From: Allopusillimonas ginsengisoli
GTDB lineage: Bacteria > Pseudomonadota > Gammaproteobacteria > Burkholderiales > Burkholderiaceae_B
Length of the DNA stretch: 64,000 nucleotides
NCBI RefSeq assembly: GCF_004153455.1
Contig: NZ_SDQE01000004.1
Location: forward strand, 124,001 to 188,000
Reading direction: 5' to 3'
Shown here: positions 56,698-64,000 of the stretch, one piece after another
Position numbering within the stretch: position 1 is the stretch's first letter
How the letters are laid out: each line of letters begins with the position of its first letter
Notes under the pieces: model-generated
Databases searched by the model: none
The model's input: only the letters and a program-made list of their open reading frames with translations
What the model was told of the DNA's origin: nothing
Made by a program: the position numbers and the translations under genes

Positions 56698-57450
56698 ATG
56701 CCCGGTTCCGCCGACGGCCCAACACTTCGCTGGACGATCGAAGCACAAGGCGATCGCTGCCTGGAGATCGGCTTTGGGCGCGGCATGAGTATCGACACAG
56801 GCCGGCAATGCGCCCGAGCGGCCGCCGCGCTGAGGCGGGCAGAGATAGAGGGCATCACGGATGTCGTGCCCACCTTCAACGCAGTCGCCGTGCACTATCA
56901 GCCAAACCTGACGGCCGCAGGCTCACTTCAGGACAGCCCTGAAATGCCTCATGCGCTTCTCGCCGCGCGCATCGAGGCGGTGCTGGACACCCTGCGGCAC
57001 AACGCCGAAGACATCGCCCCCGCCCGCATCGTGGATATCCCTGTCTGCTATGGGGATGACTACGGCCCAGACTTGACCCACGTCGCGCAGCACTGCGGCA
57101 TCGATCCAGCCGACGTCATCCGTCTGCACAGCCAGCAAACCGCCTATGTGTTCATGCTGGGTTTTGCCCCTGGTGCGCCCTATATTGGCGTTCATGATGA
57201 AAAGCTGGACATTGGCCGCCGCAGCACGCCGCGCACACGACTACCGGCCGGCTCTGTGGCCATAGCCAACCGGCAGACCATGATTTATCCCAATGCCTCG
57301 CCTGGCGGCTGGCACATCATCGGCGCAACCCCCGTCGTGCTGTTCGATCCGGGCCGGGAGCCTGCCACGCTGCTGGCGCCGGGCGACAGCATCCGCTTCA
57401 TACCCATCACGGCAGCGGAGTACGAACGGCTGCTTGGAGCACGGGCATGA
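56698..57450 (+). CDS. pxpB: 5-oxoprolinase subunit PxpB (KipI family)
   Basis: A 250-residue protein with the family core TAYVFMLGFAPGAPYIG and TRLPAGSVAIANRQTMIYP (about 155-195), and GWHIIGATPV. PxpB and PxpC form the ATP-dependent 5-oxoprolinase with PxpA. Its stop overlaps the pxpC start (ATGA). pxpA is not next to it. Confidence 0.92.
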   Translation: MPGSADGPTLRWTIEAQGDRCLEIGFGRGMSIDTGRQCARAAAALRRAEIEGITDVVPTFNAVAVHYQPNLTAAGSLQDSPEMPHALLAARIEAVLDTLRHNAEDIAPARIVDIPVCYGDDYGPDLTHVAQHCGIDPADVIRLHSQQTAYVFMLGFAPGAPYIGVHDEKLDIGRRSTPRTRLPAGSVAIANRQTMIYPNASPGGWHIIGATPVVLFDPGREPATLLAPGDSIRFIPITAAEYERLLGARA

Positions 57451-58448
57451 GCATCCAGGTGATCAAGCCCGGTCTGCTGTCGACGTTCCAGGACATGGGT
57501 CGCCACGGCCAGCAGCATCTGGGCATCCCGGTGAGCGGCGCCATGGACAATCGGGCACACCGACTGGCCAATCTGCTGGTGGGCAATCCTCACGACCAGG
57601 CCACGCTGGAAATCACTTTTGGGGGGCCGACGCTGCAATTCGACACGCCGGCCTGCATCGCCTTGAGCGGCGCCGATCTGGCGCCCTCGGTGAATGGCCA
57701 GCCTGTTGCCAACCACCGCCCCTTGATCGTGCGCCCGGGCGACAGGCTGGCTTTCGGACCCCGCCAGTCGGGCCTCAGGGCCTATCTCGCGGTCCACGGC
57801 GGCGTGTCGCTGCCAAGCGTGCTGCACAGTCGCAGCACCTATTTGCGCGGCGGCTTCGGCGGGCTGGAAGGACGCGCACTGCGTAAAGGCGACACCCTGG
57901 CGCTGAACTCGGTGCTGGCCTCAGCCGACCTGAAAGCGCTGGAAGACGCATTGTGGAATATTCGCATCTACCTGCCCACCACCCTCAGCTTGCAGCAGCG
58001 CAGCACGCTGCGCGTTCTTCGCAGCACCCATACCGGCCTGTTCACCAAACAGGCCCTGCACGCACTGTTTTCGGAGGCATTTCGCGTAAGCACCGATTCT
58101 GATCGCATGGGCTACCGGCTGCAGGGGCCGGCCCTGTCATTGCGCGAACCCGTGCAGTTGCTCTCCGAAGCCACCAGCCCAGGCAGCATCCAGGTGCCGG
58201 CAGATGGCCAGCCCATCATTCTGATGGCCGACAGGCAAACAACGGGCGGCTACGCCAAGATCGGCCATATCGCCTCGGTAGACCTTCCCAGGGTGGCCCA
58301 AAGCATGCCGGGCGATACGCTGTCGTTTTCGGAGATTTCGCTGGATCAGGCGCAAGCGCTGGACATGCAGCGCGAGCAGGCGTTTATCCAGCTGCACGAC
58401 AGCCTGGCCCCGCTACGCAAGGCACTGGCGGCGGCCATCGCCCGCTAG
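57447..58448 (+). CDS. pxpC: 5-oxoprolinase subunit PxpC (KipA / biotin-dependent carboxyltransferase family)
   Basis: A 333-residue protein with VIKPGLLSTFQDMGRHG at the start, GIPVSGAMDNRAHRLANLL, NPHDQATLEITFGGP, DSDRMGYRLQGP and MADRQTTGGYAKIGHIAS. It is the catalytic partner of PxpB in breaking 5-oxoproline to glutamate. Coupled to pxpB by a 4-base overlap. Confidence 0.92.
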   Translation: MSIQVIKPGLLSTFQDMGRHGQQHLGIPVSGAMDNRAHRLANLLVGNPHDQATLEITFGGPTLQFDTPACIALSGADLAPSVNGQPVANHRPLIVRPGDRLAFGPRQSGLRAYLAVHGGVSLPSVLHSRSTYLRGGFGGLEGRALRKGDTLALNSVLASADLKALEDALWNIRIYLPTTLSLQQRSTLRVLRSTHTGLFTKQALHALFSEAFRVSTDSDRMGYRLQGPALSLREPVQLLSEATSPGSIQVPADGQPIILMADRQTTGGYAKIGHIASVDLPRVAQSMPGDTLSFSEISLDQAQALDMQREQAFIQLHDSLAPLRKALAAAIAR

Positions 58449-60726: not shown

Positions 60727-61623
60727 CTAAGGCGCGCGCCGCACCGATTCCTGCAACTGCTGGACAAAGCGATTGGCCAGCAAAGAGGGCGCCAGTGTCA
60801 CGGAACGCGCCAAGGTGACCTGCATCCCGATGTGCGGCCGCAGCTGTTTAATGGCCAGCCTGTCGGCAAAACTGTTGGCGACAAATGGATTGACCACCCC
60901 TACCCCCACCCCCGCGGCAACCAGCGAGCAGATCGTAATGGAAGAGTTGGTCTCGATGGCAATGTCGTCCGGATACTGGCGATCGCGCAGCAGCGCGCGC
61001 ATGGCCAGAATGATGTCGTCGGTATCGTTGAGCAGCAAGAGCTTGTGCGTGTGCAGGCTTTCCAGGTCGACATAATCCACCTTTGCCAGCGCGTGTTCGC
61101 GCGGTACGACGCACACCGCATTGGCGCGCATCAGCCGGGACGACACGATATCGTTCTGCTCGATGGTGCCGGTGGTCAGCACAAAATCCAGCAAATCCTG
61201 GCGCAAGTATTCGGTCAGTTGGGGCGTGCCCAGGGTTTGCAGATTGACGTAGACCCCAGGATGCTGATGCATGAAGCGCGCGATGATGTCCGGCAGCAAG
61301 CCGGCGGCCAGCGTAGGGGTGCTGCCGATGCGAAGTACGCCCGTACCTGATTTACGCAGTATCTGCACGGCAGATTCGATTTTTTCGAGGCCGTCGAAGT
61401 GCTTGCGCACAGACTGGTAGAGCTGGCTGCCCTCGCGTGTAGGCCTGAGCCGCCCGTTGTACAGATCAAATAATTGCAGCCCGGTCGCGCTCTGCAGTTC
61501 GGACAGGCGGCGGCTGATCGAAGGCTGCGTGGTATTCAGGGCCAACGCGGCCTTGGTGGTGGTGCCGGTTTCCATGACAGTCTTGAATGCCTGGATTTGC
61601 TGGAAGTTCAGAGGGCGGGGCAT
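60727..61623 (-). CDS. LysR-family transcriptional regulator
   Basis: A 298-residue LysR regulator with N-terminal HTH (NFQQIQAFKTVMETGTTTKA, LNTTQPSISRRLSELQ) and a periplasmic-binding-like effector domain (LRIGSTPTLAAGLLPDIIARF). It resembles the group that controls amino-acid or amine catabolism. It is divergent from the beta-propeller gene and an amino-acid ABC binding protein, which are its likely targets. Its ligand is unknown. Confidence 0.9.
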   Translation of the reverse strand: MPRPLNFQQIQAFKTVMETGTTTKAALALNTTQPSISRRLSELQSATGLQLFDLYNGRLRPTREGSQLYQSVRKHFDGLEKIESAVQILRKSGTGVLRIGSTPTLAAGLLPDIIARFMHQHPGVYVNLQTLGTPQLTEYLRQDLLDFVLTTGTIEQNDIVSSRLMRANAVCVVPREHALAKVDYVDLESLHTHKLLLLNDTDDIILAMRALLRDRQYPDDIAIETNSSITICSLVAAGVGVGVVNPFVANSFADRLAIKQLRPHIGMQVTLARSVTLAPSLLANRFVQQLQESVRRAP

Positions 61624-61713
61624 GAGCGGCAGGCCAGAGTGTATGCGTCGTAATGTTAGTGCGTCGTTGGCGTACAGTATATCGAAACTGAATAGAGAGG
61701 CGCTAAAAAAGAA

Positions 61714-61844: not shown

Positions 61845-63134
61845 ATGAGTCACGCACATTCTGTTTCGCACCCTTGCCCTGTTCGCCGCCTGGGCCGCGA
61901 CGACAAACACTATTTCTTCGGGTACTACGACAAAACCGTTTGGGACAAAAGCGATCGCTATGTGCTGGGCAACCGCGTCGCCATGATGGATGCGGACATC
62001 ACGCCCGAACTGGTGGCGGAAGTGGGCTATTTCGACCTGCAGGATGACAATCGTTACCACAGCTGTGGCACGACCACGGCGTGGAACTGGCAAATGGGCT
62101 GCCAATTGCAATGGCTGGATGGCGAAGCGGGACTGCAATTCATCTACAACGTGCGGCGAGACAGCAAGAACGGTCTCTACCCCGGCTTTGGTTCAGCCAT
62201 CCACGACGTCGCCACAGGACAAACCCGCTATCTGGACACGCCCATCTATGTGGCGGCGCCCAACAGCCGGTACGCCGTGACGGTGGACTACAGCCGGCTC
62301 TATATCACCCACGAAACAATCGGCTATGCCGAAGCGGGCGGCAAGCGCACGGACATGCCGCGCTGCCCGGCCGATGACGGCATCCATTCGGTCGACCTGA
62401 AAACCGGGGAAACACGCCTGCTGGTGAGCTATGACCAGCTCAAGCAGTTTCATCACCGCGCCTCCATGGACAAGGCGATCCACTGGGTCAGCCATATCGA
62501 GATCAACCCGGCGTCCAGTCGTATTCTGTTTTTGCATCGCTGGACAGAACGCGTCGAAGACGAGACCTGCTTTCTGCATCGCCTGATCACCATGGATCCG
62601 GATGGCAGCAATCTGCGACTGCTGGAATGCTCGGACCATCCCTTGCCGCAACTGGCCGCTGATTTCGACCCCAATGCGGTCGGCACCTACGACTACGAAA
62701 AATCCGAGTATCAGATTTCGCATCCCCTCTGGCAGGATAATGAGCACATCATCGTCTGGGGGCCACATCATGGCAGCATTCATTATCACCTGTATACAGA
62801 CGACGACCATGCACAGGCCCGTGTCATTGGCGAAGGCATCCTGACCGAAAACGGGCACATGACATTCTCGCCGGTCAACAAGCGATGGCTGCTTACGGAT
62901 ACCTACCCTGACCCCGACACCAACGAGCGCGTGCTCATCATGTACGACTGCGACAACGATGTGCGCTACGACCTGGGCAGCTTTTATACCGATCCTAATC
63001 TTCGAAAAGAAAACCGCTGCGACCTGCATCCGCGCTGGAGCCGCGACGGCAATCTGGTGTGCATCGATTCGGTGCACGAACATGAGCGTCAGATGTACAT
63101 CATCGACGTAACAACCCTCGTCAATCAGGCCTGA
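61845..63134 (+). CDS. Uncharacterised beta-propeller protein (oligogalacturonate lyase-like fold)
   Basis: A 429-residue protein with repeated beta-propeller blade patterns: HYFFGYYDKTVWDKSDRYVL, HWVSHIEINPASSRILFLHR, TMDPDGSNLRLLE, HPLWQDNEHIIVWGPHHG, GHMTFSPVNKRWLLTDTYPD and HPRWSRDGNLVCIDS followed by RQMYIIDV. His residues at the same place in several blades (HHRAS, SHI, HPL, GHM, LHP) recall the metal-binding His cluster of PL22 oligogalacturonate lyases. There is no signal peptide, so it is cytoplasmic. I do not recognise a specific function. Next to LysR and an amino-acid-type ABC binding protein, which follows after 29 bases. Confidence 0.75.
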   Translation: MSHAHSVSHPCPVRRLGRDDKHYFFGYYDKTVWDKSDRYVLGNRVAMMDADITPELVAEVGYFDLQDDNRYHSCGTTTAWNWQMGCQLQWLDGEAGLQFIYNVRRDSKNGLYPGFGSAIHDVATGQTRYLDTPIYVAAPNSRYAVTVDYSRLYITHETIGYAEAGGKRTDMPRCPADDGIHSVDLKTGETRLLVSYDQLKQFHHRASMDKAIHWVSHIEINPASSRILFLHRWTERVEDETCFLHRLITMDPDGSNLRLLECSDHPLPQLAADFDPNAVGTYDYEKSEYQISHPLWQDNEHIIVWGPHHGSIHYHLYTDDDHAQARVIGEGILTENGHMTFSPVNKRWLLTDTYPDPDTNERVLIMYDCDNDVRYDLGSFYTDPNLRKENRCDLHPRWSRDGNLVCIDSVHEHERQMYIIDVTTLVNQA

Positions 63135-63163
63135 TCCTGAGGCGACGTGACACTGGAGACATC

Positions 63164-64000
63164 ATGACTATAAAGTTCCTCAACCGCAGCGCCACCCTTC
63201 AGGCCGCCTTGTTGGCGGCAGGCCTTCTGGCTTTTTCGGGCACGGCGCTGGCCAGCACGCCGGAATTGACCGGCACGCTCAAGAAAATCAAGGACGAGGG
63301 CGTAGTTGTGCTCGGCTACCGCGAGTCTTCCATTCCTTTCTCTTATTACGACGATGCCAAGCAGCCCATCGGCTATTCGATCGACTACACCAATCTGGTG
63401 CTCGAACGGATCAAGAAGGAACTGGACATGCCGGACCTGAAAGTCCGGAAGCTGCCTATTACCTCACAAAACCGCATATCGCTGTTGCAGAACGGTACCT
63501 TCGATTTTGAATGCACCACCACGACACACAATGAATCCCGTGAAAAGCAGGTGGATTTCTCCAACAGCATTTTCGTGATCGGCACCCGACTGCTCACCAA
63601 AAAGGATTCGGGCATCGCCGATTTTGACGATCTCAAGAATACCAATGTGGTCGTCGGCGCGGGAACGACATCAGAGATTCTGCTGCGCAAGCTGAATGTC
63701 GATAAAAGCCTCGGCATGCGGATCATCAGCGCAAAAGATCATTCGGAGTCCTTTTTAACGCTCTCCACCGGGCGCGCCAAGGCCATGATGATGGATGATG
63801 CACTGCTGGCGGGCGAACGGGCCAAGACACGCGATCCCAAGGACTACGTCATCACAGGAACACCGCAGTCGTTTGAAGTGTATGGGTGTATGGTCCGCAA
63901 GGGCGACACGCAGATGAAGGCCCTGCTCGATGATGTCATTGCCACGGCCCAGACGTCCGGAGAGGCGCAGGCCATTTACAACAAATGGTTCATGAGCCCC
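63164..64000 (+). CDS. Amino-acid ABC transporter substrate-binding protein (GltI-like), 3' end outside window
   Basis: ATG at 63164 has GGAG six bases upstream. The frame stays open for 279 codons to the window end. It has a Sec signal peptide (to ALA, about residue 30) and the SBP family 3 pattern seen in glutamate/aspartate-binding proteins: GVVVLGYRESSIPFSYYDD, QPIGYSIDYTNLVLERI, LQNGTFDFECTTTTHNESRE, VVGAGTTSEILL and MMDDALLAGERA. ABC permease genes would be expected just after 64000. It is likely in one operon with the propeller gene. Confidence 0.9.
   Translation, partial: MTIKFLNRSATLQAALLAAGLLAFSGTALASTPELTGTLKKIKDEGVVVLGYRESSIPFSYYDDAKQPIGYSIDYTNLVLERIKKELDMPDLKVRKLPITSQNRISLLQNGTFDFECTTTTHNESREKQVDFSNSIFVIGTRLLTKKDSGIADFDDLKNTNVVVGAGTTSEILLRKLNVDKSLGMRIISAKDHSESFLTLSTGRAKAMMMDDALLAGERAKTRDPKDYVITGTPQSFEVYGCMVRKGDTQMKALLDDVIATAQTSGEAQAIYNKWFMSP

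Follow-up and report, generated by a model that had tools for sequence, protein, structure and literature searches.

Genomic setting of the propeller gene

The window, by which we mean the whole 64,000-nucleotide stretch of the Allopusillimonas ginsengisoli genome analysed here, carries near its right-hand end an intact open reading frame for a beta-propeller protein that is predicted to be cytoplasmic, its N-terminus as read off the sequence having no signal-like stretch (Table 1). It is flanked by a divergent LysR-family regulator and, on its own strand, by a GltI-type binding protein whose frame runs out of the window. Reading frames and Pfam assignments confirm the placement given in the original prediction, between a divergent LysR gene and an amino-acid-type binding protein, and the propeller frame described there is a real one in that it is intact and has many relatives. 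Past base 64000, where the original prediction had pointed for further neighbours, the organism's own genome goes on with two permeases and an ATPase (GltJ, GltK and GltL), which complete a GltIJKL-type ABC importer; the unit in its own genome is LysR < > propeller - GltI - GltJ - GltK - GltL. Between the two divergent genes lies an AT-rich box that occurs once in the window and in none of 100 shuffled sequences, and that is partly conserved in four related loci (L004, L055, L005 and L006). We consider this box a candidate LysR site. Promoter and terminator scans gave nothing exceeding the shuffles.

Table 1. Features of the window and of related loci (positions are those of the window or of the locus named)
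Feature	Stretch	Positions	Strand	Remarks
PxpB (5-oxoprolinase subunit) and next ORF	window	56698-58448
LysR-family regulator, divergent	window	60727..61623	-	Pfam LysR_substrate and HTH_1
AT-rich box, LysR/propeller intergenic	window	61678..61695	+	partly conserved
Propeller protein	window	61845..63134	+	intact ORF, 429 aa
Insertion, residues 265-289 (25 residues)	window	62637..62711	+	from alignment, just before H293
GltI-type glutamate/aspartate binding protein, family-3 solute-binding	window	63164..64000	+	stop expected at 64090, beyond the window
Small secreted-looking protein	L065	3513-3896
Small secreted-looking protein	L068	9528-9926
Small secreted-looking protein	L071	9546-9926
Small secreted-looking protein	L072	9578-9961
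Small secreted-looking protein	L082	9579-9950
Small secreted-looking protein	L083	9558-9932
Remote relative at the end of a larger protein	L138	4213-7110		Palleronia
Remote relative, divergent branch	L135	5911-7188
Remote relative, divergent branch	L144	5109-6512
Remote relative, divergent branch	L136	5467-7176

For comparison we assembled 88 loci (81, plus 7 from further searches), all found by similarity to the query and including two pairs with identical proteins (L066/L148 and L077/L131). Neighbouring genes were called with a simple ORF chooser, and one representative of each gene cluster was scanned with Pfam. A LysR or GntR regulator stands beside the propeller gene in 78 of the 88 loci, the classes being LysR (63), GntR (11), GntR-UTRA (4) and none (10); in the LysR cases the regulator lies within 3.5 kb, and in 61 of them on the opposite strand.

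Family membership and distribution

Scanning a collection of genome contigs, we found that 107 of 114 candidate stretches encode a relative of the propeller protein, which places the frame beyond chance. The best 80 of these 107 were kept, with identities of 56-88% over nearly the full length. Cupriavidus metallidurans CH34 is one further carrier of a relative. An alignment of the window protein with 60 of the 80 kept relatives (61 rows) has 101 invariant columns, many of them His, Asp, Glu, Arg, Trp and Gln. At the family level 28 of 151 genomes encode a relative, 8 of these having remote relatives only, while the counts elsewhere were 3/398 (phylum), 6/369 (class) and 5/300 (order), the organism's own genome being included at each level.

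The family is absent from the catalogues searched, Pfam and NCBIfam. For the propeller protein itself Pfam returned nothing but one chance match (E 0.15), NCBIfam matched no family, and a PDB sequence search with the single protein found no match. Among its relatives there were weak Pfam matches to Me-amine-dh_H (5 of 61 members, best E 0.0005) and to PD40 (7 of 28 proteins of the wide set described below, best E 0.0019), which we take as general propeller signal.

Fold and relationship to PL22 lyases

An AlphaFold2 model of the propeller protein, with the 61-row alignment as input, has a mean pLDDT of 88.9 and a pTM of 0.90. Foldseek ranks PL22 oligogalacturonate lyases first to third, led by 3pe7 (E 7.1e-12, TM 0.60 on the query, rmsd 5.4) and 3c5m (E 1.1e-11), with TolB behind them (E 1.3e-7). 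A second structure aligner gives Z scores of 28.5 and 28.2 for 3pe7/3c5m against 24.6 for the next chain, superposing 336 residues at an rmsd of 3.5 in the best PL22 match; below PL22, WD40-type proteins take up much of its list. With both methods placing PL22 at the top, the beta-propeller of PL22-like layout that had been proposed from the sequence holds.

The corresponding link by sequence emerged only once remote relatives were included. A profile of the 61 rows reached an E value no better than 0.24 against the PDB, and in a comparison with PL22 it scored a probability of 1.3, which is not significant. A wide alignment of 28 rows, 19 of which are remote relatives, gave an hhalign probability of 97.1 against four PL22 proteins, and hmmsearch with this wide profile against 177,635 PDB sequences retrieved 3pe7 (E 3.2e-10) and 3c5m (E 5.5e-8). 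TolB is the next PDB sequence match (E 0.0038), and in its alignment none of the three conserved His positions is occupied by a His. The Pfam model for PL22, PF14583, leaves the window protein unmatched and finds 1 of the 61 close members (E 0.0038) and 2 of the 28 wide-set proteins (best E 0.007). Judged from these comparisons, the propeller protein is a cousin of PL22 with an altered metal site and not a member of it. The two groups (PL22 being represented by 3pe7, 3c5m and PF14583) have the propeller fold in common, but PL22 belongs to pectin breakdown, whereas the loci of the propeller family lack a pectin setting, and the family carries a 25-residue insertion ahead of the position of the PL22 base. 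A literature search returned no paper combining oligogalacturonate lyase, PL22 and beta-propeller. Our verdict is that the fold is known, while the family and its genomic setting are new.

Predicted active site

All 28 rows of the wide alignment share Q83, G85, N102, D178, G179, H293, W296, H338, D352, Y354, D393, H395, P396 and R415, and R391 is nearly invariant. The several aligned His residues of the original prediction can therefore be named as H293, H338 and H395. In the hmmsearch alignments, read out by script, these three pair with His242, His287 and His355 of PL22 in 4 of 4 proteins, as do D352 with Asp300 and R391 with Gln350, while D393 pairs with His353 in 3 of 4; one of the PL22 proteins is shorter, and its last residues are numbered lower by six. 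Comparison of the wide alignment by hhalign concurs for H293, D393 and H395, but leaves H338 unpaired with His287 and puts N390, not R391, on Gln350. The H338-His287 pairing also appears in the weaker comparison of the 61 rows with PL22. We leave the odds of the readings discussed below unaltered by the disagreement over H338 and the Gln350 position, as H293, D393 and H395 pair alike in both comparisons and H338 is invariant.

The title of the 3pe7 entry mentions manganese, and we take the PL22 manganese ligands to be His287, Gln350, His353 and His355 and the catalytic base to be His242. On that assumption the position of the base is kept in the family as H293, and two ligands are kept as H338 (His287) and H395 (His355), whereas Gln350 is replaced by Arg391 (or Asn390) and His353 by Asp393. 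A relation to the PL22 metal site, as had been suggested, is borne out by this pairing of residues; the PL22 His/Gln set for manganese is not conserved as such, since two of its four positions differ. From the alignments, H338, D393 and H395 perhaps form a metal site of the 2-His-1-Asp type.

Just before H293 stands the insertion listed in Table 1, which is absent or cut to a few residues in the 19 aligned remote relatives. Within it F274, D275, G280, D283, Y284, E285, K286 and S287 are among the residues invariant in the 61 rows, and confidence in the model is poorest here, with pLDDT falling to 64 and 56 in its lowest blocks. A natural reading is that the insertion is a candidate active-site lid, mobile and lying over a small substrate.

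These residue patterns bear on whether the protein is an enzyme at all. Propellers often bind proteins, and the abundance of WD40-type folds in the structural list below PL22 would likewise suit a non-enzymatic scaffold or sensor that binds a metal or ligand on behalf of the importer. We give this a very small chance: it sits poorly with 101 invariant columns in 61 rows, with site positions common to an enzyme family, and with the observation that the partner importer changes while the propeller protein stays.

Importer types and substrate clues

Importer genes accompany the propeller gene in 78 of the 88 loci, and their type varies. Counting those on the same strand, we found TctC alone in 31 loci, TctABC in 22, Glt ABC in 21, Glt with Dpp in 2, Dpp in 2 and none in 10, the last label being conservative (at L133 TctABC stands on the opposite strand, and at L066 and L067 a TctC gene is found further upstream). 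On a family tree, which was built quickly and has some long branches, there are at least 10 changes of importer label if the rows labelled none are left out and 15 if they are kept; the five importer labels count TctC alone separately from TctABC, and Glt from Glt with Dpp. As one protein accompanies unrelated importers, this suggests that the importers carry the same compound or class of compound. The original prediction had been of a possible lyase or isomerase acting on a compound brought in by the ABC system. That class of enzyme is still the best one to infer, but a fixed ABC importer does not stand, the partner being variously Glt ABC, TctABC, a lone TctC or Dpp ABC.

Two features of the importer loci deserve mention on their own. 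In 6 TctABC-linked loci a small secreted-looking protein of 123-132 aa is encoded just before the propeller gene (Table 1); the one member scanned had no Pfam match. In L008, L009 and L014 the genes upstream of the propeller gene include Dpp/Opp-type permeases and one from a gene cluster with a Peptidase_S41 match, a hint that the substrate at these three loci may be carried in a peptide.

The most specific clue to the substrate comes from the binding protein. The window GltI scores 388.2 bits against NCBIfam NF008063 (cut-off 375), and it matches the glutamate/aspartate binding protein DEBP (2ia4/2vha) with an E value of 4.3e-111, as a plain member of that kind. We compared nine DEBP positions which, Ser72 apart, we presume to be ligand contacts, and 8 of the 9 are identical across the 23 linked GltI proteins (Arg24, Ser72, Arg75, Thr92, Arg97, Thr140, His164 and Asp182, each in 23/23); the ninth, position 90, is Ser in DEBP and Ser in 10 of the linked proteins, but Thr in the other 13. 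For Ser72, ligand contact is stated in the excerpted text of PMC10942590. By this computation, which compares residues in alignment, the linked GltI proteins have a pocket of the glutamate type, and on the strength of that pocket an acidic amino acid or a close analogue is the best guess for the substrate. Among the binding proteins of the TTT transporters are BugD, which goes with aspartate, and BugE, which goes with glutamate, alongside citrate and other binders, according to part of a paper that also puts the number of TctC genes in Achromobacter species at about 100-200 (PMC5812351). With so many copies there, a lone TctC neighbour is weak evidence in that genus. The two linked TctC proteins scanned matched several solved TctC structures, BugD and BugE included, with none singled out.

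Other neighbours also point to an acidic amino acid, though they are few. Directly upstream of the propeller gene, 4 of 88 loci have an aminotransferase gene. Within 3.5 kb of it, 3 of 88 have a glutamate dehydrogenase gene, two of the three being the same Bradyrhizobium stretch, and 5 of 88 have HyuA and HyuB genes, two of the five encoding identical propeller proteins. The aminotransferase at L133 comes closest to models of aspartate aminotransferase, and the HyuA proteins come closest to caprolactamase alpha, in both cases under the curated cut-offs. The window also carries, about 3.4 kb upstream of its propeller gene, a gene for PxpB with a following ORF, taken for PxpC. L004 and L055, the two nearest relatives, have this pair within 5 kb as well, and it had no match in the flanks of the other loci.

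Both the HyuA/HyuB-type neighbours and the PxpB pair, which lies 3-5 kb upstream in the window, L004 and L055, would fit another carboxylate chemistry on the same metal site, for instance one that closes or hydrolyses a lactam or lactone ring, as between glutamate and 5-oxoproline. We think this quite unlikely, as HyuAB could open a ring themselves, the PxpB linkage showed up only in the nearest relatives, and the chemistry of PL22 and of C5-epimerases is non-hydrolytic.

Remote relatives and the uronate setting

Remote relatives from other genomes and plasmids are 21-37% identical to the window protein and occur in the organism's own phylum, in one Parabacteroides and in one archaeon. Apart from WbgV, the 19 aligned ones keep H293, H338, D393 and H395. 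Examples with annotation lie in polysaccharide clusters or adjoin glycosyltransferases, and the archaeal relative sits amid glycoside hydrolase and sulfatase genes. In stretches 3.7-18 kb long, a glycosyltransferase probe matched 15 of 19, three of which are the sources of the probe (L105, L136 and L137). A UDP-sugar dehydrogenase probe matched 2 of 19, L136 and L137, both of them probe sources, and on this count a connection between the remote relatives and the synthesis of uronates is weak. In Palleronia (L138) a 965-aa protein that bears the annotation glycosyltransferase family 2 ends in a remote relative. A divergent branch (L135, L144 and L136), the archaeal member included, reads DPHP where the family has DLHP, near the HPHP of PL22.

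The nearest by sequence among the relatives found that bear a named enzymatic function is encoded on a Shigella sonnei plasmid (27.8% identity over 94%, E 2e-27). It is annotated as the UDP-GalNAcA C5-epimerase WbgV and, in some records, as a glycosyl transferase. WbgV is similar to the family over its full length, a likeness that we draw from overall identity and annotation, but it belongs to an O-antigen synthesis cluster, whereas the propeller family is found at importer loci. Its role is disputed. For Plesiomonas, one source, consulted in excerpt, reads the joint presence of wbgVX and wbgZ as pointing to UDP-D-FucNAc4N and UDP-L-AltNAcA (PMC6467956), and an excerpt of another assigns the C-5 epimerase role to WbgZ and connects WbgV and WbgX with a different sugar (PMC9723277). 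Our literature search returned no paper joining C5 epimerase with UDP-GalNAcA.

Fold and homology to PL22 and WbgV would be in keeping with an enzyme of uronates or oligosaccharides, a PL22 lyase or C5-epimerase proper whose importers carry sugar acids. Of the 21 genomes known at that point to carry the family, 14 were probed; UxaC was in none of these 14, KduI in 1 and UxuA in 5. The organism itself is among the UxuA carriers, and on that account the UxuA data do not exclude uronate use, but its UxuA gene lies on another contig, and no pectin or uronate catabolic gene is among the identified neighbours of the propeller loci. The context had originally been judged not to be pectin catabolism, a judgement that the scarcity of UxaC and KduI in the 14 genomes supports, and we reject a pectin/uronate role at these loci. 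Given also that the importers are of amino-acid or carboxylate types and that GltI keeps its amino-acid pocket, we hold a uronate or oligosaccharide enzyme to be highly unlikely.

Proposed function

PL22 lyases and uronate C5-epimerases share a chemistry, the removal of a proton beside a carboxylate. We tentatively propose that the propeller protein is a cytoplasmic metalloenzyme of an uncatalogued family, a cousin of PL22 lyases and also of WbgV-like proteins, and that it inverts the alpha-carbon of an imported acidic amino acid or analogue, that is, a racemase or epimerase; this is a possibility that we prefer but do not hold with confidence. For such an enzyme the neighbouring importer would deliver an acidic amino acid or near analogue, and residues 265-289, the insertion, would close over this small charged substrate. 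H338, H395 and D393, as predicted from the alignments, would be the ligands of a divalent metal, this metal would bind the carboxylate of the substrate, and H293 would take the proton from the carbon beside it. Return of that proton on the other face would make the protein a racemase or epimerase, whereas expulsion of a beta group would make it a lyase. Inversion at the alpha-carbon would yield a product usable by ordinary enzymes, for example glutamate dehydrogenase or an aminotransferase, and this would explain why the gene is often found with little beyond a transporter and a regulator.

The choice between racemase/epimerase and lyase is uncertain. In a beta-eliminating lyase like PL22 the alpha-proton would be removed and a group on the beta-carbon would leave, the substrate being for example a beta-substituted or N-substituted acidic amino acid. 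The nearest fold is that of a lyase, the position of the base His242 is kept, and one gene would be enough to give a usable unsaturated or keto acid. We nevertheless regard a lyase as somewhat unlikely, with two PL22 ligand positions altered and with the nearest named relative by sequence annotated as an epimerase. The same annotation of WbgV, and the fact that a stereochemical switch needs one enzyme only, lead us to favour a racemase or epimerase.

Several points weigh against the racemase or epimerase as well. A GltI pocket that fits L-glutamate calls for no racemase where L-glutamate itself is concerned, and the isomers of glutamate are already interconverted by MurI, according to an excerpt of a review (PMC8142540). 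The neighbouring dehydrogenase, transaminase and HyuAB genes are few, the role of WbgV is disputed, with the C-5 epimerase of Plesiomonas put at WbgZ, two of the four PL22 ligand positions are altered, and the aligners differ on details.

Metal-dependent racemases of the enolase superfamily have a fold different from the propeller. A metal on the substrate carboxylate would be a logic common to the propeller family and to these enzymes, such as mandelate racemase (PMC8142540, in excerpt). In the main text of that review the word propeller is absent, and among the literature titles listed we found none linking a PL22-type propeller fold to a racemase. In its fullest form, which we think unlikely as a whole, our proposal would be of a first beta-propeller family of metal-dependent, PLP-independent amino-acid racemases or epimerases, catabolic, of common descent with a pectin lyase and with WbgV-like proteins from polysaccharide clusters, and letting bacteria draw on acidic amino acids of the 'wrong' stereochemistry.

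By sequence, the comparison connects PL22 lyases with a WbgV-like group found in polysaccharide clusters. It also assigns a fold and an active site of known chemistry to a family that had no annotation and that accompanies importers, and for this family it predicts four residues as catalytic and a handful of candidate substrates. As the nearest known proteins by shape break down pectin fragments, the family looks like an old enzyme design turned to a new use. If the racemase reading is true, amino-acid racemases would gain a new fold.
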